Positions 1 through 36,097 of a stretch of DNA of 36,097 nt are shown here, piece by piece (position 1 is the first letter of the stretch; every line of letters begins with the position of its first letter). Both the position numbers and the translations under genes were made by a program. This DNA is from an uncultured Actinomycetes bacterium (lineage in GTDB: Bacteria > Actinomycetota > Actinomycetes > S36-B12 > UBA10799). The notes under the pieces were generated by a model that was not told the DNA's origin, did no database searches, and saw only the letters and a program-made list of their open reading frames with translations. The DNA is taken from contig CAMPEQ010000001.1 of the NCBI GenBank assembly GCA_946803585.1, forward strand, positions 1 to 36,097, read 5' to 3'.

Positions 1-2668
1 GTCATCCAGGCAGTACCCGCGTCATAACCAGTCCGAGTCGTGCCCACCGTCAACCGCGCCTCAACACCATCACCAAGATCAGTGACCGTGACCAGACCAG
101 ACTCAGAAATCACACACTCCGTACCGCAACCAATCGGATCAGTACCGGGCACCGCGAGAACCGAGGTGACCGCGAACGAGACCGCCGGATCAGCATCGCC
201 GAAGTTCGCGATCTGAACCGTGAACCCACCATCAGTACGAGTCGGCTCATCAAAGGTCGGCGTGAACGCCTCACCATTGATCGACGTCGTTGACGCGACG
301 GCCGTGCCCTCGACGTAGCCCGGCCTATTTGCACTTACCGTGACTGAGGTTGCGGTGCCTGGATCGACGTCAGTAACGGTGACCACCCCGTCGAGTTCAC
401 CGACCGAGCCCTGAGCACCTTCGGGAGTCAGCGACTTCACTGCGAAGGTGAAACCGTCGTCCGTCAGGTCATAGTTCTCGATCGCAACTGTGAATCCGTC
501 AGCTGTCGGTACCGGTTCGCCAAGAACTGGGTCTTCCTGTGGATCATTCGCAAAGCCGGTGACGGGGGCACTACCGCTCGTGTAGCCGGTCCGAACGGTT
601 TGGATCGTCACGGTGGCCGACTCGCTCTGGTCGAGACCAGTCACGGTAACCAGACCCGTTTCCAAGTCCAGGTCAGCATCAGCCTCTACGGGATCCACAC
701 TGAGAATCGACCAGGTGAAGTCGTCACCGGCGGGCGAGTAGTTGCTGATCGGTACCGAGAACCCAACATCGGTTCGAGCGATATCGCCGAAGGTCGGGGT
801 GAGCGCGTCACCGACAATCGAGGTCTCTGTCGCTTCAGCACTACCACCGACGTACCCGGCCTTCTCTGTGGTGACCGTGGCAGTCGATTCGGTCCCCGGA
901 GCGACACCTGTCACCGTCAGGAGGCCGGTCTCAGGATCGATCGTTCCGTCACCATCTGCAGTCACCGACGGAACCGCCCACTCGAACCCGTCGCCGGCCG
1001 TCCCGTAGTTGGTGATCTCGGCGGTGAACCCATCCGTGGTCGGGGTGTAGTTGTCGAAGGCAGGAGTCAGGGCGACATTCAGCGACGTTGCAGTGGCCGT
1101 ATCGCTGCCACTGTCGTAGCCCTCTCGGGTCGTCATGACGGTCACAGATGCTTGCGTACCGGGCGCGACGTCGGTCACGGTCAGGAGACCTGATTCGTTT
1201 ATCTCCGCAGATGCCGTATCGGGATCGATCGTGGTCGGGGTGAATACCCAGTCCAAGGCGACCGCCGCGTCGTAGTTCGTGATCTGCACATCGAAGCCCA
1301 CGGCCGTGGCAGTCGGCGTCCCAAACACCGGATCAACAGCTGCGCCGAGCGCTGAACCGGTCTTGGTTGCCACTCCCGGGGCATAGCCCTCTCGGGTGGT
1401 CCGAACAGTGATCTCTTCGGTCTGGCTTGGGTCGAGGTTACTTACCTGGACGTAGGCCACCGGCTCTTCCTCGACGATCGCCTCGACGATCTGGGCCGTT
1501 GCTGGCAAGGTGAGTGGGTCTACTGACCACGCGTAGTTCGTGTTGTTGTTGTCTGTGTAGAAGTTGGTGATCGGAACAGTGAAGCCAGTCGCTTCACGAT
1601 TGACATCACCAAGGATCGGCGTGCCAGCACCCGCAAGTGCGGTCCCCATGACAGGTGCGCTGCCGTCCACGTAATCGGCTTTTTCGGCGGTGATCGTGAC
1701 AGTTGCCGAGGCCAACGCATCAAGACCCGTGACTGTTACCAGACCCGTGGTCTGGTTGAGGTCGACAGTCGCGGTATCTGGATCCACTGACTCGTCGTTC
1801 CAAGTGAATCCATCACCGGCATCGCCAAAGTTGGTGATTTGTGCGGTGAAACCGTCAGGGGTAGATACTGGTTCGGCGAACGTCGGGGTGCGCGCCGCAT
1901 TCAACGACTTCGAGCTCTCGGTGGCACTTCCGCCAGCAAATCCCTCTTGCGCTGTGGTGACCGTGACCGTGGTGTCGGTATTGGCCGCAACACCTGTGAT
2001 GGTGACCGCTCCCGTTGTCTGATTCAGCTCAGCAACAGAGCCATCTGGAGTATTAGCCGAGATCGCCCAGGTGAAGTCATCAGCTGGGCCGAAGTTGGTG
2101 ATGTCGACGGTGAATCCGTCTGCCGTTGGAACAGGCGAATCGAACTCCGGAACCAAGGCCGCCTTCAGCGACGTCTCGGCGATCACGTCGATACCCGCTG
2201 CATACCCTTCGCGGGTGGAAGTGACTGTCACGCTGGAGGAAGTGTCGGGCTGAACTCCGGTGACCGTCATGTACCCGGTCGCGCTGATAGCGGCGGTACC
2301 AGTCGAGGCGACCCCTGCCCAATCATAAGAGTCGTTGAAGTTGGAAATCTGCACCTCGAAGCCGTCAGCGGTCGGGATCGCAGCATCAAACTCGGGAACG
2401 AGTGCCGCGATCAGCGACGTTGCCTCGGTGTCCGCAGATCCATCGACGAAGCCGGTCCGCACCGTGGTGATCGTGGCAACCGAGAGCGTCTCAGGCGCAA
2501 CGTTCGTCACGGTTACTAGACCGGTTAGCTCGTTGACGTCGACGATGCCGGACTCAGTAGCGGTTCCGCTCCACGCGTACTCCGGATCGAAGTTGCTGAT
2601 CTGAACTGTGAAGCCGTCTGCAGTGGGCACCGCAGTGTCGAAGGTGGGCGTCTTCGCCGGGGCCAGCG
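1..2668 (-). repeat. At least ten tandem ~83-97-residue beta-rich repeats
   Basis: Each unit starts with a pattern like TPTFD-x-x-x-PTADGFTVQI-x-NF. It continues with a W-x-V/I strand, a G-L-V-T-V-T-G-V-x-P-x-T strand and a T-T-x-R-x-GY-x-x-GSA ending. Unit starts lie near 2660, 2410, 2155, 1895, 1630, 1338, 1075, 808, 538 and 273, and the last unit touches the window edge. The final visible unit has an insertion with two cysteines (GCGTEC), not seen in the others. The fold is probably an Ig-like beta sandwich; I cannot assign a named family. Confidence 0.75.
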
Positions 2669-5600
2669 GAGTCACCGCGTTCGAGATGCTGGAGGGATCG
2701 GAGGTGCCACCGTCGTTACTCGCTACCGCGGTGAACGTGTACTCAGTTCCGTTGGTCAATCCAGTGACGACACAAGTCAGCGGTTGTTCCAGATCGGTGA
2801 TGGCACAAGTGAGCGCATCAGGAGAGGAGCTAACGGTGTAGGCGGCCACCGGTCCACCGGAGGTCGATTCCGTGATGGTCACCGTTGCACTCGCGTCGTC
2901 ACTGGTTGCAACCGGAGTACCAGGTGCGCCAGGACGAAGCATCGGGTAGGGGTCAGAGGCCGGTGATGTGCCGATGTCGTTTGTCGCGGTGACGGTGACC
3001 GAGTACTTGAATGCCTCGTCGGGATTCAGCCCCGTCACGACACACTCGGTGGTTGCTGACTCACAGGTCAGCCCACTTGGATCTGTCGTCACGTCGTAGG
3101 CGGTGATGGGGCTACCGTTGTCCGCTGGTGCGGTCCAGGTGACCGTCGCTTCGGTGCCATCTCGAACCATCGAGATTCCAGTTGGCGCGTCTGGAACGTT
3201 GGCGTCCGCGGCTCCGCCATCAACAATCGCCCAACCCGCATCAACGAGGCTCTGGCGGGCGTCGGTGGCAGCAGTCCCGTAGTACTTCAGGCCATCTGCG
3301 CACTCAATTGAGCTATCGACGGACCCACATGCGGTAAACGGAACGGAGTCGGCGCCTCGGGTTGGGATCTCCTGATCTGCCCAGCCAATCAACAACGCGT
3401 TGTACCAGTTGATCGTGTCGGATCCGGTGAGATCGGGGATGTTCTGCAGCATCCCGTCAAGGTCGGTGACGGCCGTGACATCCCAGCCACTGATATCGCC
3501 GGTGAAGGCCGAGCTATTGAACAGCGCAGACATATTCGTGACCGTGGAGGTATCCCACTGCGACAGGTCCTGGTTGAAGTCGCTGGCACCCTGGAACATC
3601 GACGATAGGTCTGTGACGCCGTTGATATCCCAACCGCTAATCGACTGGTTGAACGGGCTAGCGGCGAACATCCCCGCCATGTTCTGCGCAGCAGTTGGCT
3701 GCCAGGCGGAGAGATCACCATTGAAGGCTGACCCGGAGAAGACCTCGCTGAAGTCGACCACATTCGTGACGTTCCAGGTAGAGATGTCGGCGTCGAAGCT
3801 TGTCGTGTCCTTGAACGCCTCGCTGAGGTCAGTCGTTCCGGCAATGACCGATCCGTCAACGGCAGTCGGCGCGAAGTTCGCTGCACCGTTGAAGTAGCCG
3901 CCAGAATCACCGAGGGTTAGTGGGCCCCAACTCGTGACATCGGTCAGCTTCAGCCGATCGCCGGTGCCGTCGAAGCTCCAGCCATCGATCGTGCCGGTGA
4001 TCGAGATGTTCACGTCGCCGCGGTCTGTGTAGACGTGAGTGGCGTCCTCGTCGGCGGCACTCGTGACCTCGCCGCTAGTGCCGTCACCCCATGTCACCGT
4101 GAAGTCATAGTTTCCGCCATCAACCAGAGGCAGCGCCACAGTTGTTGAGTTCGACGATCCGGCTGAAGTACTGGTGGTATCCCAGGCACTGGTGAAGACG
4201 TCAGCGGTTGGTGCAACGGCCACCGACGGATCCGAGAGTGGGCTCTCGCCGACCCAGTTCACCGCCATCGCTCGGAACTCGTAGGCCGTGCCATTCTCGA
4301 GGCCCGACACCAAGCACGACTGCTGGGGAGAGCTGAACTGGCACAGCCAAGGTCCACCGTTGGTGTCCACGACCAGGTAGTCCTCATCGATGCCCGCTGG
4401 GGTGGCGGAGTCGATAGTTACCCGCAGTGTTCCGCTTCCTGCCGGTTGGACGATAGGAGCATTCAGCGCTGGAACCACCACGGCCGAGGGGACAGAGGTT
4501 CCGATGGCATTGGTGGCGGTGACACTGAAGTAGTAGTCGCTTGATTCCTCCGAGCAGATTGCGGACAGTTCCACCGACGTAGCGCAGAGCTCAACGTCGT
4601 CAAGGTCGATCTTGGAAACGGCATAGACCTGGTATTCCTGGATCGGGCTGCCGTTGTCGGCTGGCGCAAGCCAAGAAACGATCGAGTTTCCGGTACCGAC
4701 AACGGTCACCACGTCGACGATCTGATCTGGCACGTTCAGCTCACTTAGCCCACCATCAATGATCGTCCAACCATCATCGATCAGATTGAGGCGATCGTTC
4801 TCAGCGGCGCCCGCCGTGTACTGCGGCGCCCCTTCTCCACAGGCGCCGTCAGTTGAGGCGGCCGAGCCACAAACCGTCAGCGTGACCGCGCTCTCGGTGC
4901 TGATCTGCGGTTCCCAGCCAGCCAGCAGTTCGCCGTACCATCCGATTGATTCAGGCAACGTGATGTTCGGGTTACTGACGAACATGTCAGTGAAGTCGGT
5001 GACCGCGGCGATCTCCCACTGCGAGAAGTCACGCGTCGTATCGATACCACTTCCGGCGAACATGCTGCTCATGTCCTCGACGTTGGTTGTCGTCCAACCG
5101 CTCAGGTCTTGGTTGAAGGCACTCGCGCCGGAGAACATCAGCGCCATATCTTCAACGAGGCCGGTGCTCCATCCACCGATTGGCTGATCGAAGGAAGCGG
5201 CGTCGGCGAACATCCGGTTCATATCGGTGGCGCTCGTGGTCACCCAGCCGGAAATATCAGTCTCGATACCGGAGGACTCAAACATCGCATCGAACTGATC
5301 GACTCCGCTGACATCCCAGCTCGCGAGACCCGTTCCTTGGAACGCGGCCGCGCCCTTAAACGCGTTTGTCATATCGGTGACTTGGTCGACGTCCCAATCA
5401 GTGACATCGGCGTTGAAGGCTGCCGCGTTGTAGAACGCGTTGAAGAAGCTCGTCGTGCCGCTGAGGTTGAAGTCATCGGTCGCACTAACGGTCATGTTCT
5501 CGGCGCCGTAGAAGTAGCCGTTGGCGTTACCTAGTTGCAGGGATCCCCACGTACTCACGTCGAGCAGCTTCAGGCGATCGCCGCCGGCGTTGAAGCGCCA

Positions 5601-8600
5601 GCCATCGATGGTGCCGGTGATAGTGACGTTCTTCGTTCCGGCGAACGCGTAGGTATGCGTCACCTCAGCCTGGTCGTAGGCAGTGATGTGATCGGTCGAG
5701 CCGTCGCCCCAAGCGACGTAGAAGTCGTAGGTTCCAGTGTCCGTCAGCGGCAACTCAATCTGGTTGACGGCCGTCGATCCGGCAGACTCGTTGTTCGTTC
5801 GCCAGGTCGAGGCGAATACCTTGCCAGGAATCGCGACATTTGAGGCAGCAGATGCCGCCGATGAGCCCACCCAGTTAGTAGCAACCGCGGTGAAGGTGTA
5901 ACTATCGCCGTTGATCAGCCCGGTCACCACACAGGAGGATGCAGGGACGGTAATGGTGCATTGCGCGCCGTCTTCAACTGAAGTGACCGTGTAGCTCGTC
6001 GGGGCTGCCCCCACGATAGGCGGAGTAATCGAGACCGTGGCCTTCCCGTCTCCAGCGACTGCGACCGGGGTGGCCGGAACATCCGGGACTTCAGTGGCCG
6101 ATGGTGCTGACGTACCAACCGCGTTGGTTGCGGTGACCTCGTACACGTAGTTGTCGGCGTCATCCGGTAGATCAGTGAACTCACAGGTCAGCGTTGCCGT
6201 TTGGCAGACCACATTGGGGTAGGTGCCCGGGTCTGTCGTGTGAATCGCTGTGACTGTGTAGCCGGTGATTGGGCTGTCGTGGTCGTCCGGTTCCGCCCAC
6301 TCGATTGTTGCGGTATTCCCCACCTTCTCGCCGTCGACGTCGGCAGGGGCATCCGGGACATCCAGGGTTGTTTGGCCGCCATCGGTCATCGTGAAGCCAC
6401 GGGCCACTAGTTCAGCACGAGCATCCGTTGGTAAGCCCAGAGAGTATTTCGCGGGTGCGGAGTCGATTGTCCGATCGGCGACTGTTGTACCGGACCCGGT
6501 CGCGGGAACAACATTCTGCGAGGCGAGCCGTTCCAGGAACAGGTTGTAGTTGTAGATCCCGCTTGCCTCGTTGAGGTTCGCCAGTGCGCTGTTGTTGAGG
6601 AACTGGCCAAACCGAGTAACACCCTCGAACTGCCAGGTCGAGAGGTCTTGGTTGAACGCGGTTGCGTTGTGGAAGGCATCTGTGAGGTTCTGCGCGCTGG
6701 CGGTATTCCAGTCCGCGAGCGGCTGGTTGAACGCGGACGCATCAGCGAACATGCTGCTGTAGTCCGCCAGCGCCGCGACGTCCCATGCCGCCAATGGCTG
6801 ATTGAACGCCTCTGCACCAGCGAACATGCTGGCGGCAGTCGTGACACCCGACATATCTAGTGTTGAAACATCACCGTTGAAGTCCGCTGCCCCACCGAAC
6901 ATGCTTGAGGTATCGGCAAGTGCTACTTGGGTGCCCGGCCAGTTCAGCGGCTGGTTGAACACGTCTGCTTCGCTGAACATCGCTGTGGTGGTAGCCAGAC
7001 TCGAAAGGTCACTCCACGCAATCGCCGAGTTGAAGGAATCTGCCTCGTTGAACATCGACTCCATCGTCGTGACACTGCCTAAGTCACCCCAGCCAGAGAG
7101 CGGCTGATCGAAGGCGCTCGCACCGGAGAACATCGACTCCATCGTGGTCACCGCGGCCGGCTGCCAGGTGCTGAGGTCCTGATCGAACGACGTGGCTTGA
7201 GAGAACATGCTGGACATGTCCGTCACGTTCGAAACGTCCCAGTTACCGATGGCTCCGTTAAAGGCGGTAGCACCGGCGAAGGCCTCGGCCAGACTCGTCG
7301 TTCCGGTCAGATCCAGCGCATCGGTGGCGGTCACCTCAAGATTGGTCGCGTCCTTGAAGTACTGACCTTGATGATCTTCGGTGCCCAACTGAACGGGACC
7401 CCATGCGCTGATCCCGGTGAGTTTCAGCCGTTCCGTTGCTCCGCTGATATTGGTCGCCATATTCCAGCCGTTGACGGTGCCGGTAATCGTGAGGTTCTTA
7501 ACGCCCGGGGTGTCGTAGGTGTGGGTGATACCAGCAGGCGAACCGGGTACAACGTCTCCGGTGACGATGTTGCTGAACGTTCCATCTCCCCAGCCGACGA
7601 CGAAGTCGTAGTCACCATCGGCCACCAGCGGTAGGCGCACCTGATTCTGATTAGATCCACCGGCGACGTTCGTGGTGTCCCAAGTGGATTCGAATGTCGG
7701 GCCGGGAATGACTGAGTTACTTGCCCCGGATGGACTTGAATCCCCGCCGATATTGGTCGCAGTTACGGTGAAGGTGTAGGGCGTTCCGTTAGTTAGGCCG
7801 GTTACGTCACAGGTGGTGGCTGGATAGTCGGCGGAACAGGTTTGAGCACCGGGACTTGCTATCGCCGTGTACGAGGTCGGGACGTTTCCGCCTACTGGAG
7901 CCGTCCACCAGACCGTCGCCGCGGTCTCCAAGGGGAGGGCGCCATATTGCGCACTAACGGTGGGGGCATTCGGAGGATTGATCTGCGGGACCACCGTGGC
8001 CGGTTCGGATTCTGGGGAGGTTCCGATCACATTCGTGGCCGTCACGACAACCGAGTAGGTCTGGCCATTGGTCAGGTCATCCCAGGTACAGCTACGAGGG
8101 TTGTTGCCTTCAACGAGACAGGTCGCCGAACCGGTATTGGGATCCGGGGAAATCGTGGCAACGTATTCCAGGACGGGCTCGTTGTTTGATTCGGCGGCAT
8201 TCCACGTAGCGGTTGCTCCGCTGTCAGCGCGGGCAGCCTGCACGCCAGTGGGCGCATCTGGTGCGCTGGTGATCCCGCCGTCGGTGATCGTCCAGCCATC
8301 ATCCCCAGTCAACTCATCGTGCGCGACGCTGGCTGGACCGAGGGTGTACTTACTTGTACCCGCATCGAAGGGAACGTTCTGCCTTACCGTCTGAGCAGCC
8401 CAGCCGATGAGCACCGCGTCGTAGGTAGTCCGACTCAAGCCAGCGGAGGCGAACATTGAGGCCATGTCAGTGACCTTGCCGATATCCCATGTCGCGAGGC
8501 TGCGGTCAAAGGCCGGGGCCGAGTCGAACGTTGACACCATGTTGGTGACGTTGCCAACCTGCCAGCCGGAGATATCGGAGTTAAACGCGGTTGCACCCCG

Positions 8601-9296
8601 GAACGTTCCGACCATCGACGTCACCGAGGAAACATCCCAGTTGGAAATATCGCCGTTAAACGAAGTCGCGCCTCGGAAAGCATTGTTGAGGTTCGTAACT
8701 CCAGAGACGTCCCAGCCTGTCAGGTCCGCATTCAGGCTGGTTGCGCCCAAAAACACTCCGGACAGATCCGACGTCGAGGTGAGGTTGGGGCCATCGGTCG
8801 CGGTCGGATTGAAGTTCTCGGCGCCCCAGAAGTACCCACCGGCACTTCCCAACTGCAGGGGACCCCACGCGCTGACGTCGGTCAGTTTGAGTCGGTCACC
8901 GGTGTTCCCGAAGCGCCAACCGTTGATGACTGTCCCGGCGATGCTGATGGTTTTGACACCTTCAGTCCCGTAGGTGTGGGTGACCTCTGCCTGGTTGTAG
9001 CTCGTGATCGTATTACTGGTCCCATCACCCCAGTTGACGACGAAGTTGTAGCTTCCCGTAGCCACTAGCGGCAGGGAGATCTGGTCGCTGTTGGAGGAGC
9101 CCGCGGACGTGAGCGTCGTATCCCACGTACTCGTGAAGGTGGTTCCGGCAGCATTTGCTACGGGTGCGGCTAGGCCAAGCCCAGCGACCACCATGAGGGA
9201 TGCGGTCAGGGCGCTTAGAATCGAGCGCCAGGTCCTCCTGCTGACTGAAAAACTAGGCGCGGTTGGGCGCGAATCGTCGATTGCTGAATTCGCCAT
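1..9296 (-). CDS. Giant BspA-like (DUF285) modular surface protein, 3' end missing
   Basis: A single minus-strand frame stays in phase at every point checked (near 9296, 7499, 4019, 2099, 110 and 11) and runs off the window, giving at least 3,098 residues. The ATG at 9296 has a GAGGA ribosome site four bases upstream. A long signal peptide (about residues 1-50: basic start, hydrophobic core, then APVANAA) indicates export. Four modules follow, each beginning with a F-x-S-x-W-x-T stretch and a WGDG(T/S) PKD-like domain. DUF285 repeats come next, with the typical A-x-x-FN-x-x-(I/L)-x-x-W and V-T-x-M-x-x-MF pattern. Each module ends in a DGG turn and fibronectin-III-like domains (PDAPT, VTGLTNGT-Y-F-V-A-N). 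The last 2.6 kb encode tandem beta-rich repeats. DUF285/BspA families are surface proteins, several involved in adhesion; binding or biofilm function here is inference. The anchor, whether LPXTG, transmembrane or other, lies outside the window. Apparent frames on the opposite strand are shadows. Confidence 0.9.
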   Translation of the reverse strand, partial: MANSAIDDSRPTAPSFSVSRRTWRSILSALTASLMVVAGLGLAAPVANAAGTTFTSTWDTTLTSAGSSNSDQISLPLVATGSYNFVVNWGDGTSNTITSYNQAEVTHTYGTEGVKTISIAGTVINGWRFGNTGDRLKLTDVSAWGPLQLGSAGGYFWGAENFNPTATDGPNLTSTSDLSGVFLGATSLNADLTGWDVSGVTNLNNAFRGATSFNGDISNWDVSSVTSMVGTFRGATAFNSDISGWQVGNVTNMVSTFDSAPAFDRSLATWDIGKVTDMASMFASAGLSRTTYDAVLIGWAAQTVRQNVPFDAGTSKYTLGPASVAHDELTGDDGWTITDGGITSAPDAPTGVQAARADSGATATWNAAESNNEPVLEYVATISPDPNTGSATCLVEGNNPRSCTWDDLTNGQTYSVVVTATNVIGTSPESEPATVVPQINPPNAPTVSAQYGALPLETAATVWWTAPVGGNVPTSYTAIASPGAQTCSADYPATTCDVTGLTNGTPYTFTVTATNIGGDSSPSGASNSVIPGPTFESTWDTTNVAGGSNQNQVRLPLVADGDYDFVVGWGDGTFSNIVTGDVVPGSPAGITHTYDTPGVKNLTITGTVNGWNMATNISGATERLKLTGISAWGPVQLGTEDHQGQYFKDATNLEVTATDALDLTGTTSLAEAFAGATAFNGAIGNWDVSNVTDMSSMFSQATSFDQDLSTWQPAAVTTMESMFSGASAFDQPLSGWGDLGSVTTMESMFNEADSFNSAIAWSDLSSLATTTAMFSEADVFNQPLNWPGTQVALADTSSMFGGAADFNGDVSTLDMSGVTTAASMFAGAEAFNQPLAAWDVAALADYSSMFADASAFNQPLADWNTASAQNLTDAFHNATAFNQDLSTWQFEGVTRFGQFLNNSALANLNEASGIYNYNLFLERLASQNVVPATGSGTTVADRTIDSAPAKYSLGLPTDARAELVARGFTMTDGGQTTLDVPDAPADVDGEKVGNTATIEWAEPDDHDSPITGYTVTAIHTTDPGTYPNVVCQTATLTCEFTDLPDDADNYVYEVTATNAVGTSAPSATEVPDVPATPVAVAGDGKATVSITPPIVGAAPTSYTVTSVEDGAQCTITVPASSCVVTGLINGDSYTFTAVATNWVGSSAASAASNVAIPGKVFASTWRTNNESAGSTAVNQIELPLTDTGTYDFYVAWGDGSTDHITAYDQAEVTHTYAFAGTKNVTITGTIDGWRFNAGGDRLKLLDVSTWGSLQLGNANGYFYGAENMTVSATDDFNLSGTTSFFNAFYNAAAFNADVTDWDVDQVTDMTNAFKGAAAFQGTGLASWDVSGVDQFDAMFESSGIETDISGWVTTSATDMNRMFADAASFDQPIGGWSTGLVEDMALMFSGASAFNQDLSGWTTTNVEDMSSMFAGSGIDTTRDFSQWEIAAVTDFTDMFVSNPNITLPESIGWYGELLAGWEPQISTESAVTLTVCGSAASTDGACGEGAPQYTAGAAENDRLNLIDDGWTIIDGGLSELNVPDQIVDVVTVVGTGNSIVSWLAPADNGSPIQEYQVYAVSKIDLDDVELCATSVELSAICSEESSDYYFSVTATNAIGTSVPSAVVVPALNAPIVQPAGSGTLRVTIDSATPAGIDEDYLVVDTNGGPWLCQFSSPQQSCLVSGLENGTAYEFRAMAVNWVGESPLSDPSVAVAPTADVFTSAWDTTSTSAGSSNSTTVALPLVDGGNYDFTVTWGDGTSGEVTSAADEDATHVYTDRGDVNISITGTIDGWSFDGTGDRLKLTDVTSWGPLTLGDSGGYFNGAANFAPTAVDGSVIAGTTDLSEAFKDTTSFDADISTWNVTNVVDFSEVFSGSAFNGDLSAWQPTAAQNMAGMFAASPFNQSISGWDINGVTDLSSMFQGASDFNQDLSQWDTSTVTNMSALFNSSAFTGDISGWDVTAVTDLDGMLQNIPDLTGSDTINWYNALLIGWADQEIPTRGADSVPFTACGSVDSSIECADGLKYYGTAATDARQSLVDAGWAIVDGGAADANVPDAPTGISMVRDGTEATVTWTAPADNGSPITAYDVTTDPSGLTCESATTECVVTGLNPDEAFKYSVTVTATNDIGTSPASDPYPMLRPGAPGTPVATSDDASATVTITESTSGGPVAAYTVSSSPDALTCAITDLEQPLTCVVTGLTNGTEYTFTAVASNDGGTSDPSSISNAVTPLAPAKTPTFDTAVPTADGFTVQISNFDPEYAWSGTATESGIVDVNELTGLVTVTNVAPETLSVATITTVRTGFVDGSADTEATSLIAALVPEFDAAIPTADGFEVQISNFNDSYDWAGVASTGTAAISATGYMTVTGVQPDTSSSVTVTSTREGYAAGIDVIAETSLKAALVPEFDSPVPTADGFTVDITNFGPADDFTWAISANTPDGSVAELNQTTGAVTITGVAANTDTTVTVTTAQEGFAGGSATESSKSLNAARTPTFAEPVSTPDGFTAQITNFGDAGDGFTWNDESVDPDTATVDLNQTTGLVTVTGLDALASATVTITAEKADYVDGSAPVMGTALAGAGTPILGDVNREATGFTVPITNFYTDNNNTNYAWSVDPLTLPATAQIVEAIVEEEPVAYVQVSNLDPSQTEEITVRTTREGYAPGVATKTGSALGAAVDPVFGTPTATAVGFDVQITNYDAAVALDWVFTPTTIDPDTASAEINESGLLTVTDVAPGTQASVTVMTTREGYDSGSDTATATSLNVALTPAFDNYTPTTDGFTAEITNYGTAGDGFEWAVPSVTADGDGTIDPETGLLTVTGVAPGTESTATVTTEKAGYVGGSAEATETSIVGDALTPTFGDIARTDVGFSVPISNYSPAGDDFTWSILSVDPVEADADLDLETGLVTVTGLDQSESATVTIQTVRTGYTSGSAPVTGFANDPQEDPVLGEPVPTADGFTVAIENYDLTDDGFTFAVKSLTPEGAQGSVGELDGVVTVTDVDPGTATSVTVSANRPGYVEGTAVASTTSINGEAFTPTFDEPTRTDGGFTVQIANFGDADPAVSFAVTSVLAVPGTDPIGCGTECVISESGLVTVTDLGDGVEARLTVGTTRTGYDAGTAWM
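3220..9143 (-). repeat. Four long WGDG + DUF285 + Fn3-like modules inside the surface protein
   Basis: Approximate module starts on the minus strand are 9143, 7700, 5825 and 4200, and each begins with a related W-D-T/W-R-T stretch. Their DUF285 parts end near 8270, 6370, 4755 and 3220. The number of ~25-residue DUF285 units differs: roughly four in the first, ten in the second, six to seven in the third and five in the fourth. Fn3-like pairs separate the modules. Boundaries are read by eye from the translated frame and are accurate to about ten codons. Confidence 0.75.
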
Positions 9297-9300
9297 TTGA

Positions 9301-9305
9301 TCCTC
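9301..9305 (-). promoter_or_regulatory. Ribosome binding site of the giant surface protein
   Basis: The reverse complement reads GAGGA followed by TCAA and the ATG at 9296. The short spacing supports this start over any other for the surface protein. Confidence 0.6.
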
Positions 9306-9565
9306 AACACTCACTCTAAGTACATCTGCGCCTAACAAAGAGTTACCCGCGCTTATAGAACCACCCCGAGCCGCCCGAAGGCGAGCGATGACGGCCACAT
9401 TGGGCCGGGTGGGTGAGCCCACTCACGGTTCCGTGTGGCGAACGGGTGGGAATCGGCCAATGCGCGCTTCCAGAACTACTGAGGGTCACCATTCGTGGCA
9501 GCAGAATCACCGAGTTGCATCCGGCTGATTGGCAAATACCTCACCAGGTGGGCAATGATGGCAAT

Positions 9566-12802: not shown

Positions 12803-14065
12803 CTAGGAGTGACCCGCTATCCCGCGAGCCGACTTCGATGCAGCCTTTGCCTCACGTACGAGCGCCTCGAAGGTCTCACTCGTTGCGCTCCCAGCGGCAG
12901 TTCCCACATTGGTCCTGATCGGAATTCGACCAAGTGCGTGTCCGGAACTGGCGATTGTGGCCTCGATCCGATCAGACAGCGAATGGGCGTCGGGCTTGTC
13001 TCCGAGCCCGGCGATCACGAAGGCGTCTCCGGCGTATCGGGCGACAAGGTCCCCTGACCGCACGTTGACAGCGATGGCCTCCGCGACGATCTTTAGAACA
13101 CTATTTCCATAGTCGATCCCGTACTTCTTATTCGCCTCACCGAGCTGGTCGATCTCCAGGTAGATCACACAAACGTTCGACTCCATTCGGTCGGCGATCC
13201 CCCCGAGGGCCGGCATGAGCGTCTGCAATCCGTTGCGCGTGAGCATGCTTGTGGCAAGGTCCGTCGTTGCAAGGGCATTCGCCGCCACCGTCTCGTCGGC
13301 GAGCGAATCTACTGCGAGCAAGCGCAGGCGCAACAGTCCAAGGCCCGCGAATGCGGCAACCACGCTGACGAAGGCGATCCGGTAGTCCTCACCACCGGAA
13401 ATACCCCAAGCACCACCGATCAGTCCCGCGAGGATGAGGCAGCTGCCAACCACCGACGGGTACCAGGCCATCGTCAGTGACGGGAACCCGACTAACAAGA
13501 TCAGCAGGTAGGAGAGCGGTGATTGATTGCCTGAGTAAACGCTATCGACGATGAGTGCTGCTGCCACCAAGATGTTCGATACCGACCAAAGCCATCTGAG
13601 ACCCGCAACACTGATGCTTGAACGAATTACGACCTGACTGGCAATGAGAACCGCGAGTCCCAACGCAAGGCCGGCGAGCTCGACGAGTTGCCGGTCACCG
13701 GAATCGTCGGTCGCCAAGGTGATTAGCGAGAGGACGGTCGTCAAACCACCGAGAACGATCAAGCCAGTTGGAATGTAGCGCTTGGCAACGGTAGTCCGCA
13801 TAAGCTCATGCGGATCATCCGATTCCGTCCAGGTCGTCTCGGGTAGGGCTTTCATAGCGACTTCCTCATCTATCGTGATCCCGAATTTCCCTAACCACCG
13901 GCGTACCGAGGCGGTGCGAGCTGGCTTCGGTAGCGGAGCCAGCTTCGACAGAGTTAAACCGATGTAGACCAACGTATTGAACGCAACAACGGTCGCGAGC
14001 ACACTGAACCAGGTGCTACTTAAGACCGATTGCGGTAGCAGCAAGCCACCAACGACATCGTTCAT
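12803..14065 (-). CDS. Multi-pass membrane protein with degenerate GGDEF domain
   Basis: The 420-residue product has about seven hydrophobic segments in the first ~250 residues, then a GGDEF-type domain. The signature motif is degenerate: RYAGDAF at about 343-349 instead of RYGGDEF. The upstream metal-binding stretch reads LEID, so the first metal Asp is replaced by Glu. Known diguanylate cyclases need the Glu of GG(D/E)EF and that Asp, so catalysis is doubtful; a GTP- or c-di-GMP-sensing or purely structural role is possible. The ATG overlaps the TGA of the upstream glycosyltransferase (ATGA, 14062-14065), implying translational coupling. The likely job is control of that synthase at the membrane, which is inference from gene order. 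Its stop lies about 80 bases from the convergent peptidase gene. Confidence 0.8.
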   Translation of the reverse strand: MNDVVGGLLLPQSVLSSTWFSVLATVVAFNTLVYIGLTLSKLAPLPKPARTASVRRWLGKFGITIDEEVAMKALPETTWTESDDPHELMRTTVAKRYIPTGLIVLGGLTTVLSLITLATDDSGDRQLVELAGLALGLAVLIASQVVIRSSISVAGLRWLWSVSNILVAAALIVDSVYSGNQSPLSYLLILLVGFPSLTMAWYPSVVGSCLILAGLIGGAWGISGGEDYRIAFVSVVAAFAGLGLLRLRLLAVDSLADETVAANALATTDLATSMLTRNGLQTLMPALGGIADRMESNVCVIYLEIDQLGEANKKYGIDYGNSVLKIVAEAIAVNVRSGDLVARYAGDAFVIAGLGDKPDAHSLSDRIEATIASSGHALGRIPIRTNVGTAAGSATSETFEALVREAKAASKSARGIAGHS

Positions 14066-15540
14066 TTGACTGGGTCTTCTGTCGTATGGACAACATGACC
14101 CCAGGTCGTCCCCTTCGCGCGCGCGATATCAATCAAGCACGTCACGAACACGACTTGGAGGAAGACGTCGTAGGCCAGCTCCGGCAGTAATAGGAGTGCC
14201 AGGAGTCTGGCCTTGGGGCCGCCTGACCAGGCGGTAACCACCCGCTCAACGACGAAGATGGCGCCAATCACCAGCCAGAAGGGAAACCAGATCCACGTGT
14301 CGACCGCTAGGAAGGTGATGAGCATCAACAGGATCGCCAGGTTCAGCGCAATTGTTCCGTACCCGATACCAACCTGCTGACCCCAGTACCGAATCGTTGA
14401 ACGTGTAACCCCGTACGCGGCCAGGTTCTCAAGCGCCCCGCGCTGCCACCGCTTGCGCTGAGTCCACAGCGCCTTCCACGTCGGCATGATCTCGGTTGTG
14501 ACCTTACATTCGATCGGACTGTTCATTGATGCGCCCAGAGACTTCAGGGCGAGCGTTAACTCGTTGTCTTCGGTCAGCGCAGCCGTGTCGTAGACGTTTC
14601 CGGTATCCCCTGGAATGAAGACCCCGCGGGCGGCGGCCACGTCGAGCAGAACCTCCGCTCTAAACATGGATGCGGTGCCGGTGAGCACGAAGACCCTTCC
14701 ATGGCGCGACCTGATCTGAAGGGAGTAACGGGCATACTCATTGCGCTGGAATTGCCCGATGAGTCCCTCGCCATCCTCGCCGTAGAAGACACCTCCGACA
14801 GCTGACAGGTCCTCATCTGCGGCGAACCGCGCAACCCCTGTCTCGAGGAAGCGCGCACTAAGACGAGTGTCCGCATCCATGATCATGATGACGTCTCGCG
14901 CATCTGTGCTCACAAGCAACTGCTGTAGCGCCTGGTTGAGGGCTCCACCCTTCTTGTGGGTGTTGCCGACAGTCTCGAATGCCTCGTAGCCCATCTCTTC
15001 GGCGATAGCGACGGTTCTATCCGTGCAGTTGTCCGCAACTACAATCACCCGGTCAGGTGCACGTGTCTGCTGTTTCAGCGCTTCGAGCGTTCCGGGGAGC
15101 GAGGCTTCCTCATTGTGGGCCGGCATCACGATCGTGAGCCGAAGCGGGCCGGGTTCGGTCTCGTCAAACTGCTCCCGATATGACGCAAGGAGATCACGCT
15201 TGGGGCTAACAGTAAGTAGTGCGGCGATTGCCTCAAACGCGAATGCGCAGCTCGCAACACCAACCAACGTCAGAATAGACAGGAAGATCAGCATCGAAGG
15301 TGGGGCTTCCGCTGAAACGCTAAGCGTGAATGGCCCGACCTCGACCTGCTTGATATTTCCGAACTCAACCTGGGAGTTCTGCAGAATCTGACTCAGCGCG
15401 GCAACTGCTGCCCCGGCAGTAACCACGATCGCAACCACGAGGCCAACGACAAGGCGCGCGTGGTCACTATCCGCTCGAGGTGTCCGAACGTTGACCGGCT
15501 GAGCGAATACATGCGGGGAGCGCTCCGACTGGTTGGCCAC
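14062..15540 (-). CDS. Membrane glycosyltransferase family 2 (processive polysaccharide synthase type)
   Basis: With the GTG at 15540 the product is 492 residues. That start is chosen because GGAGG lies seven bases upstream; the frame is open to a GTG at 15588. Two transmembrane segments precede a GT-A domain with ADNCTD (about 169-174), the metal-binding MDAD (222-224), TED (323-325) and the acceptor-site QRKRW (361-365). Three to four transmembrane segments follow. This order is typical of cellulose, hyaluronan and poly-N-acetylglucosamine synthases, which add sugars from UDP-sugars while extruding the chain. The sugar cannot be told from sequence alone. The gene is followed by the coupled degenerate-GGDEF gene and is divergent from a GH26-like glycanase, suggesting an exopolysaccharide locus. 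Confidence 0.88.
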   Translation of the reverse strand: MANQSERSPHVFAQPVNVRTPRADSDHARLVVGLVVAIVVTAGAAVAALSQILQNSQVEFGNIKQVEVGPFTLSVSAEAPPSMLIFLSILTLVGVASCAFAFEAIAALLTVSPKRDLLASYREQFDETEPGPLRLTIVMPAHNEEASLPGTLEALKQQTRAPDRVIVVADNCTDRTVAIAEEMGYEAFETVGNTHKKGGALNQALQQLLVSTDARDVIMIMDADTRLSARFLETGVARFAADEDLSAVGGVFYGEDGEGLIGQFQRNEYARYSLQIRSRHGRVFVLTGTASMFRAEVLLDVAAARGVFIPGDTGNVYDTAALTEDNELTLALKSLGASMNSPIECKVTTEIMPTWKALWTQRKRWQRGALENLAAYGVTRSTIRYWGQQVGIGYGTIALNLAILLMLITFLAVDTWIWFPFWLVIGAIFVVERVVTAWSGGPKARLLALLLLPELAYDVFLQVVFVTCLIDIARAKGTTWGHVVHTTEDPVK

Positions 15541-15853
15541 GTTGGGACCTCCGATGGTCACTTTCGCGCGACTAGGTCGCCGAGGCACTCGGGCTTTCTG
15601 CCACTGGCACTTGTTGGTGCGTCCCCCCGACCGTCCTACGCAATCCGAGTATCCCCATTTGGGTGGGAGTGAAGCGCGGTGAAACGGTCGGTACTCAGCT
15701 CCGGTTTCGGCTTGAAGCCCTCACTACGCTAAGCGGGTGATTGCTCACGATAATTCCAGTTCTTGAGTCTGTTCGACTAATAGTCACGTCTCCGCCGACC
15801 GATACAGCAAGCGAACGGTCAGGAATTCCAACGAGGGGGCGAGGTCCGAGTCG
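15541..15853. other. Divergent intergenic region between GT2 and GH26-like genes
   Basis: About 310 bases separate the two start codons. The region must contain the promoters of both transcription units. I see no convincing -35/-10 pair, riboswitch or RNA gene. A GAGG at 15841-15844 is a plausible ribosome site for the ATG at 15854. Confidence 0.5.
15548..15552 (-). promoter_or_regulatory. Ribosome binding site deciding the GT2 start
   Basis: The reverse complement GGAGG lies seven bases before the GTG at 15540. It lies inside the longer open frame that begins at 15588, so it argues for the shorter protein. Confidence 0.6.
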
Positions 15854-17149
15854 ATGTCTGGAGTGCGCGCTCGCCGATCGCTGTCGATACGGATCGTTCT
15901 GGCTCTCACCCTCGTGGCAGCCCTGGCACTGACCACGGTCTCTACCGCTACGGCGGCGGCCGCGGCACCGACGCCCGCTACTCAATCCGGCGCGACCCAT
16001 GCACTTGCCGCTCCCTCGACCAAGGTTGCTGCATCGTTGAGAACAGTGCGCAAAGCCGCCCGGAAGGCCTGCCGGATGGACATCAAGGCCAAGCGCGCTG
16101 GGTTCCGGTCGAATCGCGCGAAGAAGAAGGCACTGAAGCGTTGCGTACGCAAGACCGTCAAGAAGAAGGGCGCCAAGAAGAAGGGCGCCAAGAAGAAGCC
16201 AGCCACGATAGCCCCGCAGGAACCGCTTCCAACTCCCCAGCCAGAACCATCCCCGAGTACTCCGCCAGCACCGACTCCAACTGAGGAGCCATACGTTGCG
16301 GGCGAGGACACGGTGTTCGGGTGGTCATCTCGGAACTTGACGGCAGTCAGAGCAACGGAGGCAGCCGTTGGAGTCCGGGCGGGCGCACTCAGCGTCTTTA
16401 CAGACTTCACCCAAGACTTCAACACCGAGGAAGCAGCGTTTGCAGCCCAGCGCAGCGCCCCCCTGGTGGTCAGCTGGGAACCATGGGACTCGAGCCTGTC
16501 GACAAGGACTCAGCCCGCCTTCTCACTGGGATCGATCGCTGCCGGTGATCATGATGTTTACGTCAAGCGGTATCTGCTGGCCGCTAAGCAATCAGGTATA
16601 CCGGTCATGATTCGGTTCGCGGGCGAGGTCAATGGTGACTGGAATGCCTGGGCACAGCCGATCGCCGGTAACTCATCGGCCGACTTCGTCGCAGCCTTCA
16701 GGTATCTGGTCACCACTTCCCGCGAACTCAATGTCACCAACGTGTCATGGATGTTCAACTCGATCGTGTCCTACGAGGGATCTACTCCCCTCGCCGACCT
16801 GTACCCGGGCGATGCCTACGTCGATTGGGTAGCGCTAGACGGGTACAACTGGGGCGCCCTCAAGTGGGGCTGGCAGTCCTTCAAGGACATCTTCACCCTC
16901 GGACTAGCCGAGATCGAATCGGTCGCGCCGGATAAGCCGCTAGCGATCGCCGAGATCGGGTCCACCACCGGGCCAGGCAAGGCGGCTTGGGTGAGCGACT
17001 CGCTTAACTCAGCGCGGGCTGCCGGAGCCAAGATGGTGCTCTGGTTCGATCACAACAAAGAGACTGACTGGAGGATCGGTGCCGATCCAGCGGTGGCGTC
17101 CGCAACCAACGAAGTAGTCACTGGGAAGGGCTGGCAGACCGGAAAGTAG
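15854..17149 (+). CDS. Secreted GH26-like endo-glycanase with lysine-rich linker
   Basis: The 431-residue product has a signal peptide (RARRS start, long Ala/Leu/Val core, cleavage near residues 35-40). A strongly basic segment of about 50-115 follows with a K-K-K-G-A repeat, then a Pro/Thr/Glu linker, then a catalytic domain from about residue 145. That domain resembles GH26 beta-mannanases and related glycanases: VSWEPW, the acid/base Glu in RFAGEVNGDW, W-V-A-L-DGYNW, and the likely nucleophile Glu in AIAEIGS, followed by LWFDHNKE-x-DWR. It probably hydrolyses a beta-linked polysaccharide outside the cell. Because it is divergent from a polysaccharide synthase, it may trim or release that polymer; alternatively it digests external mannan or glucan. 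The basic region could hold the enzyme to anionic wall polymers. Confidence 0.8.
   Translation: MSGVRARRSLSIRIVLALTLVAALALTTVSTATAAAAAPTPATQSGATHALAAPSTKVAASLRTVRKAARKACRMDIKAKRAGFRSNRAKKKALKRCVRKTVKKKGAKKKGAKKKPATIAPQEPLPTPQPEPSPSTPPAPTPTEEPYVAGEDTVFGWSSRNLTAVRATEAAVGVRAGALSVFTDFTQDFNTEEAAFAAQRSAPLVVSWEPWDSSLSTRTQPAFSLGSIAAGDHDVYVKRYLLAAKQSGIPVMIRFAGEVNGDWNAWAQPIAGNSSADFVAAFRYLVTTSRELNVTNVSWMFNSIVSYEGSTPLADLYPGDAYVDWVALDGYNWGALKWGWQSFKDIFTLGLAEIESVAPDKPLAIAEIGSTTGPGKAAWVSDSLNSARAAGAKMVLWFDHNKETDWRIGADPAVASATNEVVTGKGWQTGK
16160..16198 (+). repeat. 15-bp tandem repeat coding for a Lys-Lys-Lys-Gly-Ala segment
   Basis: The unit AAGAAGAAGGGCGCC occurs twice exactly (16160-16174, 16175-16189), followed by a nine-base partial copy. 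It lies within the basic region of the GH26-like protein and keeps the frame, so copy-number change would only lengthen or shorten the basic stretch. Confidence 0.85.
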
Positions 17150-32891: not shown

Positions 32892-34385
32892 ATGTCACGG
32901 AAATCAACTGGTTGGAAGAAGCTCGGAGTTGTTGGGGCCTGCGGAGTAGCGGCGCTTAGCGTGGCTGCCTGTAGCTCGGGAGGATCGACGAGTCCGGGCG
33001 CCGCCAAGAAAGACGCCGCGCACGGGTCAACTGCCGGCAGCGAATCCTTCAGCTTCTTGAATATCAACTATGCGATCCCGGATGGAGTTGGTAAGCAATG
33101 GGGAACCGCGAAGGTTCCGATTGCGATGGGCTTCATCGGCTCCGGCGGCGGCTGCACCCCCGGCTTCCTCACTTCGGCTGGCCCGGTCGGGCTTGATGCC
33201 AGTGTGGGAACAATGATCTCTGATCTCAAGAGCACCTCCGGCCAGGAAGTTGCGCTGGCATTTGGCGGCGAGGCTGGCACGATGCTTGAAGGGACCTGCA
33301 CCTCCGTTGATCAACTAGCCGCGACCTACGAGGGTATCGCCAAGGAGTACCCAGGCGTCACAAACTGGCTCTTCGACATTGAGGGTTCATCGGAGAATGT
33401 TGAGCAGCAGACCATGCGGATGCAAGCTCTCAAGCAGGTAATCGCTAAGTACCCGGATCTGACGATCTGGCTCGTACTTCCCACCACGTCAACCGGTCTC
33501 GATGCCCTCGGCAAGCAAATCTTCGAGGCCGCTAAAGATGCCGGGGTGCCGGTCAAACTCGACATCATGTGCCAAGGATTCCCCGTGGGCGACGTCGTCG
33601 ACAACAGCATGGCGAAGACCTGCATCCAGGCTTTGGGCGGCGTGAACACCTACCTCCAAAGCACGCTTGGGATCAGCGAATCCGAGGCCTGGGCAATACA
33701 AGGAGCGACTCTGCAGATCGGGCCTCAGCCCAACCCTGCCCTGCCCGCGGCAACCCTCGATGACGCGCGGATACTACAAGACTTTGCTGACTCCAAGGGG
33801 TTAGCTGCCGTCATGCCTTGGTCGCTCAACCAAGACGTTGCAGTCGGATCAACGGCATCGACGTATCCGTGGGCATGGCCGGGTTGGACGTCGCAAACGA
33901 GCGACTTCGAGTTCTCCCGTCTCGCGGTGATTCCTTCGCCGACTAGCTCGCCCACCCCGACGGCTACACCGACGCCAACACCGACCGATCCGCCATCGCC
34001 AACCCAAACACCAACACCGACCCCAACAACGCCAACGCCAACCCCGGAGCCCACAAAGGCGGGCAAGGGAGTGACGGTTAGCTACACGGGCTCGGGATGG
34101 TCGAGCGGCGCCACGGTCAATGTGACAGTCACGAACAACGGACCTGCTACCTCCTCGTGGGAAGTCAGCATTCCGTGGGATGCCTCACCGGAATCCGTCT
34201 GGTCAGGGGTGAACAAGTCAACTCCCGGCGTAATCGCAGTGGCGAACGAGGAATGGAATGGCAACCTTGCAACCGGTGCCTCCACCACCTTCGGCTTTAC
34301 AGCGAACTTCAGTTCTGATCCGGCCAAGCCCACCAAATGCTCCGCCAAGACTGATGCCGGTAGCGTCAAGTGCGTGCTCAAGTAG
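32892..34385 (+). CDS. GH18-like chitinase lipoprotein with PT linker and CBM2-like domain
   Basis: The 497-residue product starts with a lipoprotein signal (W-K-K-L, hydrophobic core, lipobox S-V-A-A-C, cysteine near residue 27). A GH18-type domain follows (about 50-345) with the strand M-G-F-I-G-S-G-G-G, the VALAFGGEAG strand and catalytic motif N-W-L-F-D-I-E-G at about 158-165. In GH18 the motif is DGxDxDxE; here the last Asp and catalytic Glu are kept but the first and middle Asp are lost, so activity may be reduced or altered. A Pro-Thr-rich linker (about 352-392) and a CBM2-like domain (about 395-497: V-T-V-x-Y-x-x-x-W-S-S-G-A-T-V-N-V-T-V-T-N-x-G) follow. It should bind chitin or cellulose at the cell surface. 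Confidence 0.8.
   Translation: MSRKSTGWKKLGVVGACGVAALSVAACSSGGSTSPGAAKKDAAHGSTAGSESFSFLNINYAIPDGVGKQWGTAKVPIAMGFIGSGGGCTPGFLTSAGPVGLDASVGTMISDLKSTSGQEVALAFGGEAGTMLEGTCTSVDQLAATYEGIAKEYPGVTNWLFDIEGSSENVEQQTMRMQALKQVIAKYPDLTIWLVLPTTSTGLDALGKQIFEAAKDAGVPVKLDIMCQGFPVGDVVDNSMAKTCIQALGGVNTYLQSTLGISESEAWAIQGATLQIGPQPNPALPAATLDDARILQDFADSKGLAAVMPWSLNQDVAVGSTASTYPWAWPGWTSQTSDFEFSRLAVIPSPTSSPTPTATPTPTPTDPPSPTQTPTPTPTTPTPTPEPTKAGKGVTVSYTGSGWSSGATVNVTVTNNGPATSSWEVSIPWDASPESVWSGVNKSTPGVIAVANEEWNGNLATGASTTFGFTANFSSDPAKPTKCSAKTDAGSVKCVLK
33946..34055 (+). repeat. Pro-Thr linker-coding repeat in the GH18-like lipoprotein gene
   Basis: Short CC(A/G)AC(A/G/C)-type repeats encode alternating Pro and Thr, joining the catalytic and CBM2-like domains. 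The same kind of repeat occurs in the partial chitinase gene at the right edge, so the two regions could recombine. Confidence 0.75.
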
Positions 34386-34418
34386 GCATTTGACGGCGCC
34401 CAGCTAGATGATCGAGAT

Positions 34419-34754
34419 TCACGCCCCGATTGCGCGGAGTCTCGATAGCGATATCGAACGTTGACCGTTCGACGGCATCGTGTCCGGGAGCATCGCCCAG
34501 ACCGGGGCCGCTGGCCCGTCATAGACGGTTAACCACTCACCGGCGCGGAAATCCAGCTGGATCACGAGCAAGTCATCGCACAGAACTTCAGCATGGCGAA
34601 GGGCGACAGAGGACCTCTGCGTGGCCTTAATCTCGACCGTGCGAATGACTCCGCCCGGGTAGTGACGAGTCCCGTCCCAGCCCTTGTTCGAGGCCGGTTC
34701 CAGTTGAACCAAGTGCTGAACCTGGGCGATCAGTTCCCCAATACTGCCGACCAT
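34419..34754 (-). CDS. Small PD-(D/E)XK-like protein (DUF6998-like)
   Basis: The 111-residue product begins M-V-G-S-I-G-E-L-I-A. A nuclease-like core follows: S-N-K-G-W-D-G (acidic candidate), then T-V-E-I-K-A-T-Q with the E-x-K pair, then L-L-V-I-Q-L-D, V-Y-D-G-P-A-A-P-V-W and a final N-G-Q-R-S-I-S-L-S-R-L-R. The order resembles small PD-(D/E)XK-fold proteins of the DUF6998 type as I remember them, but this is recollection and not a search. The start lies 27 bases after the stop of the chitinase gene on the same strand, so they may be co-transcribed. No signal peptide is present. It could be a nuclease remnant or small standalone enzyme. Confidence 0.6.
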   Translation of the reverse strand: MVGSIGELIAQVQHLVQLEPASNKGWDGTRHYPGGVIRTVEIKATQRSSVALRHAEVLCDDLLVIQLDFRAGEWLTVYDGPAAPVWAMLPDTMPSNGQRSISLSRLRAIGA

Positions 34755-34781
34755 TTGTCCGTCAGGGGTGAAGAGTCGGCC

Positions 34782-36097
34782 TCACTCCATCCCGGAGTTC
34801 AGGGCATCGAGCAAGGCGTTGTCGTCGGTATCGCTGGATAGCTCCCAGAACATTCCACCGGCTAGTCCCTTGTCTCGAATGTACTCGGCCTTGTAGCCGA
34901 TCGATTCGGGATCGTCGTAGGACACAAAGGTCTTGGTCTGGGCGTTATAGAGGTAGGGGACTTTGGCGTCGTCGTCCCAGTGCCGGGTGTAGCTCGGCAG
35001 GTAGTTATCGGCGATATCTGAGTAGTCGACAAAGCCCGGTTCCCACGTCCCGGCAGCAGCGCCGGTGTGCGGCTGGAACAGACCATTGTTGTTCGCTGTG
35101 ACCGAAGTGAGGCTACGTCCGTAGAACGGGACGCCAACGACGAGTTTGTTCCCGGCCACGCCTGCGTCCAAGTAGCCATTCACGGCAGCGTCGACGTTGA
35201 GCCCGGCTGGTCCCGGATCGTTTTGGGTTGAGTACAGCGGGGCGTTGTGCCCGGCGGCCGGTTCCCACGGACCGTGGAGGTCGTAGGCCATGATGTTGAT
35301 CCAATCGACGATTGCGCCTATCTCAGCGGCCGCCATGTTCGCACGGGTTTCTGGGCCGGCGGGTGCAGCGATCGTCAGCAAGTAGTCCTTGCCGCCATCG
35401 ATCTGACCTTGTCGATCGAGCTCGGTTCGAAGTGCATCAAGTAGCAACGGGTAATTCGCCTTGTCGGCTGGAGTACCTGGCTGCAAGCCACCAGATACCG
35501 GGTACTCCCAGTCGATGTCGATACCGTCGAAGCCCCAATCCTTCATGAACTTCACACAGGAGGTTGCAAACGCGGCGCGGGATTCAGGCGTAGCCGCGGC
35601 AGCGGGGAAGTTCGCCGACCAAGTCCAGCCACCGACGGAGATCAGCGTCTCGAGGCCGGGGTTGGCTTCCTTGAGCTTATTGAGCTGGTTGAAGTTTCCG
35701 CGCTTGGAACCGGCATCCCACGAGTCGCCCGGGAAGTACTTATCGGTATCTGCGTAAGGGTCACCGAGGACGCATTGACCGTTGGCGATATTGGCGAACG
35801 CGTAGTTGATGTGCGACACCTGATCGCCGGGGATCTCGCTCACTTGGTAGTTGCGTCCATACGTCGACCACGCGGTGTAGTAGGCCACAGACTTCATATC
35901 CGCCGGTGGCTTTGGCCGACCTGGACTCGAAGGCTGCTCCGTCGGGCTAGCTGTTGGGGCCGTCGCCGTGGGCGTCGGGGTTGGGGTTGGGGTCGGGGTT
36001 GCGGTGGGGCTTGGAGTTTCGGTGGGCGTTGCGGTTGGAGTCGGAGTCACCGTTGGAGTAGGTGTAGGTGTCGGAGTTGGCGTCGGCGTCGGCGTCG
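34782..36097 (-). CDS. GH18 chitinase with PT linker, 5' end outside the window
   Basis: The frame remains open to the window edge, so the true start is beyond it; a GTG at 36050 lies within the linker and is not a real start. From the edge, about 60 residues of Pro-Thr/Ser-rich linker precede a complete GH18 domain: V-A-Y-Y-T-A-W, L-I-S-V-G-G-W-T-W, the full catalytic motif DGIDIDWEYP (about 35505-35528), I-N-I-M-A-Y-D-L-H-G and the final G-G-M-F-W-E-L. With acid/base Glu and both Asp kept, it should be an active chitinase that cleaves beta-1,4-N-acetylglucosamine chains. The upstream part, outside, probably holds a signal peptide and a carbohydrate-binding domain. It converges with the GH18-like lipoprotein gene. 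Confidence 0.92.
   Translation of the reverse strand, partial: TPTPTPTPTPTPTPTVTPTPTATPTETPSPTATPTPTPTPTPTATAPTASPTEQPSSPGRPKPPADMKSVAYYTAWSTYGRNYQVSEIPGDQVSHINYAFANIANGQCVLGDPYADTDKYFPGDSWDAGSKRGNFNQLNKLKEANPGLETLISVGGWTWSANFPAAAATPESRAAFATSCVKFMKDWGFDGIDIDWEYPVSGGLQPGTPADKANYPLLLDALRTELDRQGQIDGGKDYLLTIAAPAGPETRANMAAAEIGAIVDWINIMAYDLHGPWEPAAGHNAPLYSTQNDPGPAGLNVDAAVNGYLDAGVAGNKLVVGVPFYGRSLTSVTANNNGLFQPHTGAAAGTWEPGFVDYSDIADNYLPSYTRHWDDDAKVPYLYNAQTKTFVSYDDPESIGYKAEYIRDKGLAGGMFWELSSDTDDNALLDALNSGME
35930..36097 (-). repeat. Pro-Thr linker-coding repeat of the partial chitinase gene
   Basis: Imperfect repeats of six bases (CCNACN on the coding strand) encode alternating Pro and Thr, and at the very edge become near-perfect (ACGCCG). 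They extend beyond the window, so the linker length is unknown. Confidence 0.8.

Follow-up and report, generated by a model that had tools for sequence, protein, structure and literature searches.

The window analysed here, that is, the whole stretch of 36,097 nucleotides, is the entire contig C1 of the 11-contig, 2.71-Mb genome of an uncultured Actinomycetes bacterium. On its minus strand a frame, 3..9422(-), stays open for 3,140 codons and leaves the window across the left edge; the most favourable start of this gene, termed gene A, is the ATG at 9296, which has a GAGG-like ribosome site (TGAGGATCAA) just upstream and places 3,098 codons of the gene in the window. The translation begins with what, read by eye, is a Sec-type signal peptide, suggesting that the protein is secreted via Sec. 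The features of gene A that lie within the window are the following:

3..9296, minus strand: 5′ part of gene A, 3,098 codons; the remainder lies on contig C3, up to L033:16605, giving 3,641 amino acids in total
9150..9296, minus strand: putative Sec-type signal peptide, residues 1–49 from the ATG at 9296, ending in APVANA
7695..9146, minus strand: module 1, WGDG (possibly PKD-like) domain, DUF285 repeats, two Fn3 domains; from profiles and a structure model (pLDDT 87.7)
5817..7703, minus strand: module 2, WGDG domain, nine DUF285 coils (by our own HMM), two Fn3 domains; from profiles
4197..5825, minus strand: module 3, WGDG domain, DUF285, two Fn3 domains; from profiles
2655..4205, minus strand: module 4, WGDG domain, DUF285, two Fn3 domains; from profiles
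3..2654, minus strand: ten of 15 tandem repeats of predicted Ig/Fn3-like fold, 82–96 residues each, the tenth cut by the contig edge (two-unit model, pLDDT 96.7)
1..135, no strand: exact overlap with C3:116235-116369, at that contig's right end; here C1 joins the remainder of gene A and gene B

A search of the genome with the repeats located the same repeats in contig C3 as well, at its right end, where the 135-base overlap with the window occurs; this overlap is single in the genome, the runner-up site being 72% identical. The joined C3–C1 frame contains no stop and encodes 3,641 residues from the ATG at 9296 (3,683 codons from a GTG at 9422), so that the 3′ end, which the window lacks, is recovered on C3. 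As deduced from the unique overlap rather than from reads, the complete gene A would comprise four modules and 15 repeats followed by a lysine-rich, Fn3-like C-terminus; no LPXTG motif is present.

Each module is marked by one WGDG motif (four in gene A, at 9021-9032, 7581-7592, 5700-5711 and 4080-4091). In Pfam, gene A matches DUF285 (PF03382) with E=1.2e-175 and fn3 (PF00041) with E=8e-62 (205.8 bits, eight stretches, above cut-off), and in NCBIfam the PARCEL repeat TIGR02167 with E=1.1e-33, above cut-off; a 25-residue spacing is visible in the DUF285 tracts. The Pfam scan of gene A gave no LRR_5 match (LRR_5/TpLRR repeats; E up to 1) and detected no domain known for adhesion or carbohydrate binding. 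Three of the four WGDG domains match PF00801 and PF18911 weakly and below cut-off (19.5 bits against 23.5 and 17.3 against 27), which hints that the WGDG domain could be PKD-like. In the structure model of module 1 (pLDDT 87.7) the DUF285 region is well predicted and is followed by two Fn3 domains; the matches returned for it by Foldseek and VIA are filled by Fn3 and hardly probe the DUF285 or WGDG parts. Palindromes of the PARCEL kind were sought in the repeat-coding DNA, and the dyad symmetry was not significant: by a method other than the MEME of the PARCEL paper, and run without a positive control, local dyads in seven tracts did not exceed shuffles, and the dyad score for the consensus of 57 units was reached by 64 of 1,000 permutations.

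An HMM derived from the proteins' own sequences detected the C-terminal repeats. Within gene A the units share on average 40% and at most 52% protein identity, and no tandem array was picked up in its DNA by Tandem Repeats Finder; with units this diverged, slippage or mis-assembly cannot account for the repeats. A model of two repeats (pLDDT 96.7) has seven strands per unit, and its nearest structural matches are fibronectin type III tandems with a Z of 9.2 (4.7 Å over 164 residues), a modest value that indicates a fold and says nothing of function. The repeat HMM weakly picks up some Fn3 domains of the same protein. A Pfam scan of 50 repeat pairs gave no family matching more than eight of them (best E of those, 0.0021), leaving the repeat without a Pfam family, and a sequence search against solved structures returned nothing convincing (best E=0.008). 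Most likely, to judge from the models, the repeats are tandem seven-strand beta-sandwiches of a diverged Ig/Fn3-type family. In the DNA of the first five repeats (window 1323-2654), unlike in the DUF285 tracts, local dyads exceed shuffles of both kinds (the observed score is attained in 0 of 40; ten tracts tested, uncorrected). Repeat 10 of A (window 3-266), at the site of the contig break, is 66% identical in protein to repeat 11 of B (L033), far above other units, and both have a Cys pair (GCGTEC); gene conversion or a shared function are possible reasons.

The initial annotation had described a single unbroken frame of at least 3,098 codons combining four WGDG/DUF285/Fn3 modules with at least ten tandem beta-rich repeats, and all of this holds: the frame is open with exactly 3,098 codons from the ATG at 9296, the four WGDG motifs are present, Pfam matches DUF285 and fn3, and ten repeats of predicted beta-sandwich fold lie in the window. 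DUF285, on whose detection by profiles that account depended, is found, as is Fn3; the PKD assignment stands only as weak, sub-cut-off matches. Likewise supported is the proposal that an actinobacterium here encodes a very large adhesin-like protein, probably secreted, in which DUF285 and Fn3 are combined with a second type of repeat.

Directly after A follows gene B, the ATG of which overlaps the stop codon of A (TGATG); it encodes about 4,430 residues with three modules, 28 repeats and the same kind of tail. A comparable pair is present in the MAG HKST-UBA45 (Actinomycetota; same order as the window genome, another family), where both genes are on one contig (JAGQTY010000012.1; L069/L085) and overlap by ATGA; a further genome of that family, G036, has a GTGA overlap at the junction. 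The assignment of HKST-UBA45 to this order comes from G050, a genome of the order: it and the genome of L069 have an identical contig C33 bearing identical frames. Stop/start-coupled junctions are thus found in two genomes of the other family, and the complete pair in one. The HKST-UBA45 pair has the same two-gene unit, domain order and basic tail; its A′ (3,355-codon frame) has four modules and 12 repeats compared to 15 in A, its B′ (4,354-codon frame) three modules and, like B, 28 repeats. End to end, A and B are 47% and 44% identical to their counterparts, while A and B align with each other at a lower level, about 30–40%, over shorter or gappier stretches. In a tree of the WGDG regions, module 2 of A and modules 2 and 3 of B pair, with strong support, with the HKST-UBA45 modules at the corresponding positions; modules 1 and 3 of A do so by identity only, and for module 4 the tree gives no clear partner. 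From these identities and pairings, the duplication into A and B probably predates the split of the two families. Positional orthology of the C-terminal repeats was tried and given up, as the best-hit matrices between A/B and HKST-UBA45 are unordered bar a few units; either the arrays turn over or they are too diverged to tell. The pair is kept despite different flanks: no neighbouring gene is shared with HKST-UBA45, and genomic context therefore gives no hint of function.

Some other genes of the genome are worth recording. A third giant, gene C, is a 5,381-codon frame (L032:3853-19998) on contig C11; according to its translation and our own HMMs it has a Gly-rich N-terminus, LRR-like and Fn3 stretches and two WGDG/DUF285 modules, as well as an extended block of Cys-paired repeats of another type and a pentapeptide-like C-terminus. 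In the window, positions 12803-17149 encode a GGDEF protein, an overlapping GT2 glycosyltransferase and a divergent GH26-like gene, which looks like a c-di-GMP-linked exopolysaccharide locus. Positions 32892-36050, 26 kb from gene A, encode a cellulose-binding CBM2 protein and a member of the chitinase family GH18; close to its start, the GH18 gene has a hexamer repeat rich in Gly and Val. The bacterium probably lives by degrading polysaccharides.

The charge of protein A is strikingly uneven: it is very acidic as a whole (pI 4.05) and very basic in its last 100 residues (pI 10.75), and the same acidic body and basic tail are found in B. Neither A, B nor C contains an LPXTG motif, no covalent anchor or transmembrane tail is seen in A or B, and the 98.8%-complete genome has no match to the sortase model PF04203, the one Pfam model used, which did detect sortase in three control genomes. 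The tail domains of A and B match fn3 (PF00041) with 27.8 and 26.8 bits (cut-off 25), by which the tail is a diverged Fn3 domain, the Fn3 fold being a common one. The tail domain scores 110–136 bits in the A/B-type proteins of four genomes, a fifth genome reaching 71 bits, and all remaining Fn3 domains stay below 55 bits. As a genome-wide sorting domain the tail was rejected; a search of its own genome returned A and B and, apart from these, two weak matches. That the tail anchors the protein non-covalently to wall or matrix by its charge is a conjecture; were it a true anchor, it would explain how proteins of 3,600–4,400 residues are displayed without a detectable sortase, and would provide a sequence tag for such proteins in uncultured aquatic lineages. 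The most far-reaching version, in which the two co-translated giants form lineage-specific, sortase-independent surface fibres with DUF285 tips, unequal Ig-like stalks and a shared, Fn3-derived basic domain as a new type of non-covalent wall anchor, is offered as a speculative and rather doubtful idea.

Members of the C-terminal repeat family were detected in actinobacterial MAGs from lakes and the sea, Leucobacter, Microcella, Planctomycetes, Halieaceae, Limnohabitans and other Burkholderiales, Opitutaceae and Synechococcus MAGs; within the order, 21 of 166 genomes have the repeat, this genome among them. It is, hence, not peculiar to this protein; repeats of this predicted Ig/Fn3 fold are found in many aquatic phyla, and a repeat common in aquatic bacteria and absent from Pfam now has a searchable definition and a confidently predicted fold. 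When 18 named genomes with the repeat were checked, two also had DUF285, both with A/B-type genes. Microcella and Leucobacter have the repeat, and no DUF285 turned up in either. DUF285 has a punctate distribution, with 20 of 396 actinobacterial and 12 of the 40 nearest genomes (own genome counted in both); it is therefore not new in the phylum, and the notion that an actinobacterial DUF285 protein is exceptional is not supported. Of 162 genomes of the order, 8 encode WGDG-DUF285 modules close to the A/B type; among these are the genome studied here and the other three members of its genus, without exception. The Ig/Fn3-like repeat is also encoded in 11 IMG/VR viral contigs (L141-L151); it may be shared with, or carried by, phages that infect aquatic bacteria. 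Three records that carry the repeat (L088, L089 and L105, one within a 3,712-codon Fn3-rich frame) are titled as “Bifidobacterium breve” MAGs, have lake-type isolate names, and look wrongly named.

On balance, and with due reserve, we think it probable that A is a Sec-secreted surface or matrix fibre of the “beads on a string” type, paired with B, held by its tail in the absence of a sortase and serving in attachment. A and B would be made from a two-gene operon, presumably co-transcribed and probably by translational coupling. The variable binding part, facing outward, would consist of the WGDG/DUF285/Fn3 modules at the N-terminus, with DUF285 as a solenoid, and the Ig/Fn3-type repeats, 15 in A and 28 in B, would form an extended acidic stalk; by the lysine-rich terminal Fn3-like domain the protein would be held to the cell wall, which is anionic, or to the matrix. 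Such a fibre most likely serves an aquatic actinobacterium for attaching to particles, polysaccharide or other cells, adhesion being the role usually given to architectures of this kind.

It could be argued that the long frame is an artefact of repeat collapse or of a chimera, as gene A breaks at a contig end and its homologues in fragmented MAGs likewise break within such genes; however, with units at most 52% identical, no DNA tandem array, 3,641 codons without a stop, a 135-bp overlap that is unique and in frame, and an independent MAG carrying the complete pair on one contig, this explanation of the repeats was rejected and retains hardly any probability. Less easily dismissed, if still unlikely, is a freely secreted, unanchored pair of a biofilm matrix or sheath, in which A and B, through their acidic bodies and basic tails, would bind each other or exopolysaccharide and so cross-link the matrix. 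The acidic body and basic tail in both proteins and the lack of a visible covalent anchor or transmembrane tail would suit it, as would the GT2 gene adjoining a GGDEF gene in the window, a pairing seen in exopolysaccharide loci; yet these genes are 3 kb away and no flanking genes are shared with HKST-UBA45.

Adhesion would not be the job at all if the long, sequence-variable repeats covered the cell and served to shield it from phages or grazing protists, or to decoy them. Both the solenoid modules and the repeats of the stalk are indeed variable, and homologous repeats are present in many plankton bacteria and viral contigs; but the module architecture is kept between families, which speaks for a definite binding job. 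A shield or decoy is held to be improbable. Among the fold matches of the repeats are fragments of GhpA (9g8b, 9flx, 9flu; Z 7.6–7.8), which brings to mind prey capture or cell contact as by the giant grappling hook protein of Aureispira; as such Z values are within the range of any Ig-like tandem and a fold reveals no function, we consider this very improbable.

The literature searched, which most subscription journals lie outside, yielded no description of the A/B pair. As far as these searches reach, what is new is how the parts are arranged, together with the conserved coupled pair and the tail; all parts are of known kinds. Among the closest known systems are, besides the HKST-UBA45 pair, the PARCEL/DUF285 proteins (PF03382, TIGR02167), the sporadic spread of which was already described by Roske et al. 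2010 (PMC2996958), in a main text from which the word “actinobacteria” is absent. Like A, they are large, presumably surface-exposed, of punctate distribution and built of tandem 25-residue repeats; unlike them, A has several separate DUF285 tracts, every one of them accompanied by a WGDG domain and, in most cases, a pair of Fn3 domains, and all carried on a long Ig-like stalk; the dyad symmetry of its DNA is not significant by our method, which differs from the MEME of that paper. The BspA-like LRR_5 proteins of Tannerella and Trichomonas (PMC2843621) are also large surface proteins with a solenoid domain, but in A, by Pfam, this domain is DUF285 and not LRR_5. With stalk proteins such as fibronectin, titin, SraP and GhpA of Aureispira, A would share tandem beta-sandwich domains as an extended rod, a likeness of fold only, at 10–16% identity. 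In these terms A and B would be PARCEL/DUF285 surface proteins on an Ig-like stalk, made of known building blocks and ending in an unusual tail where a wall anchor is customary.
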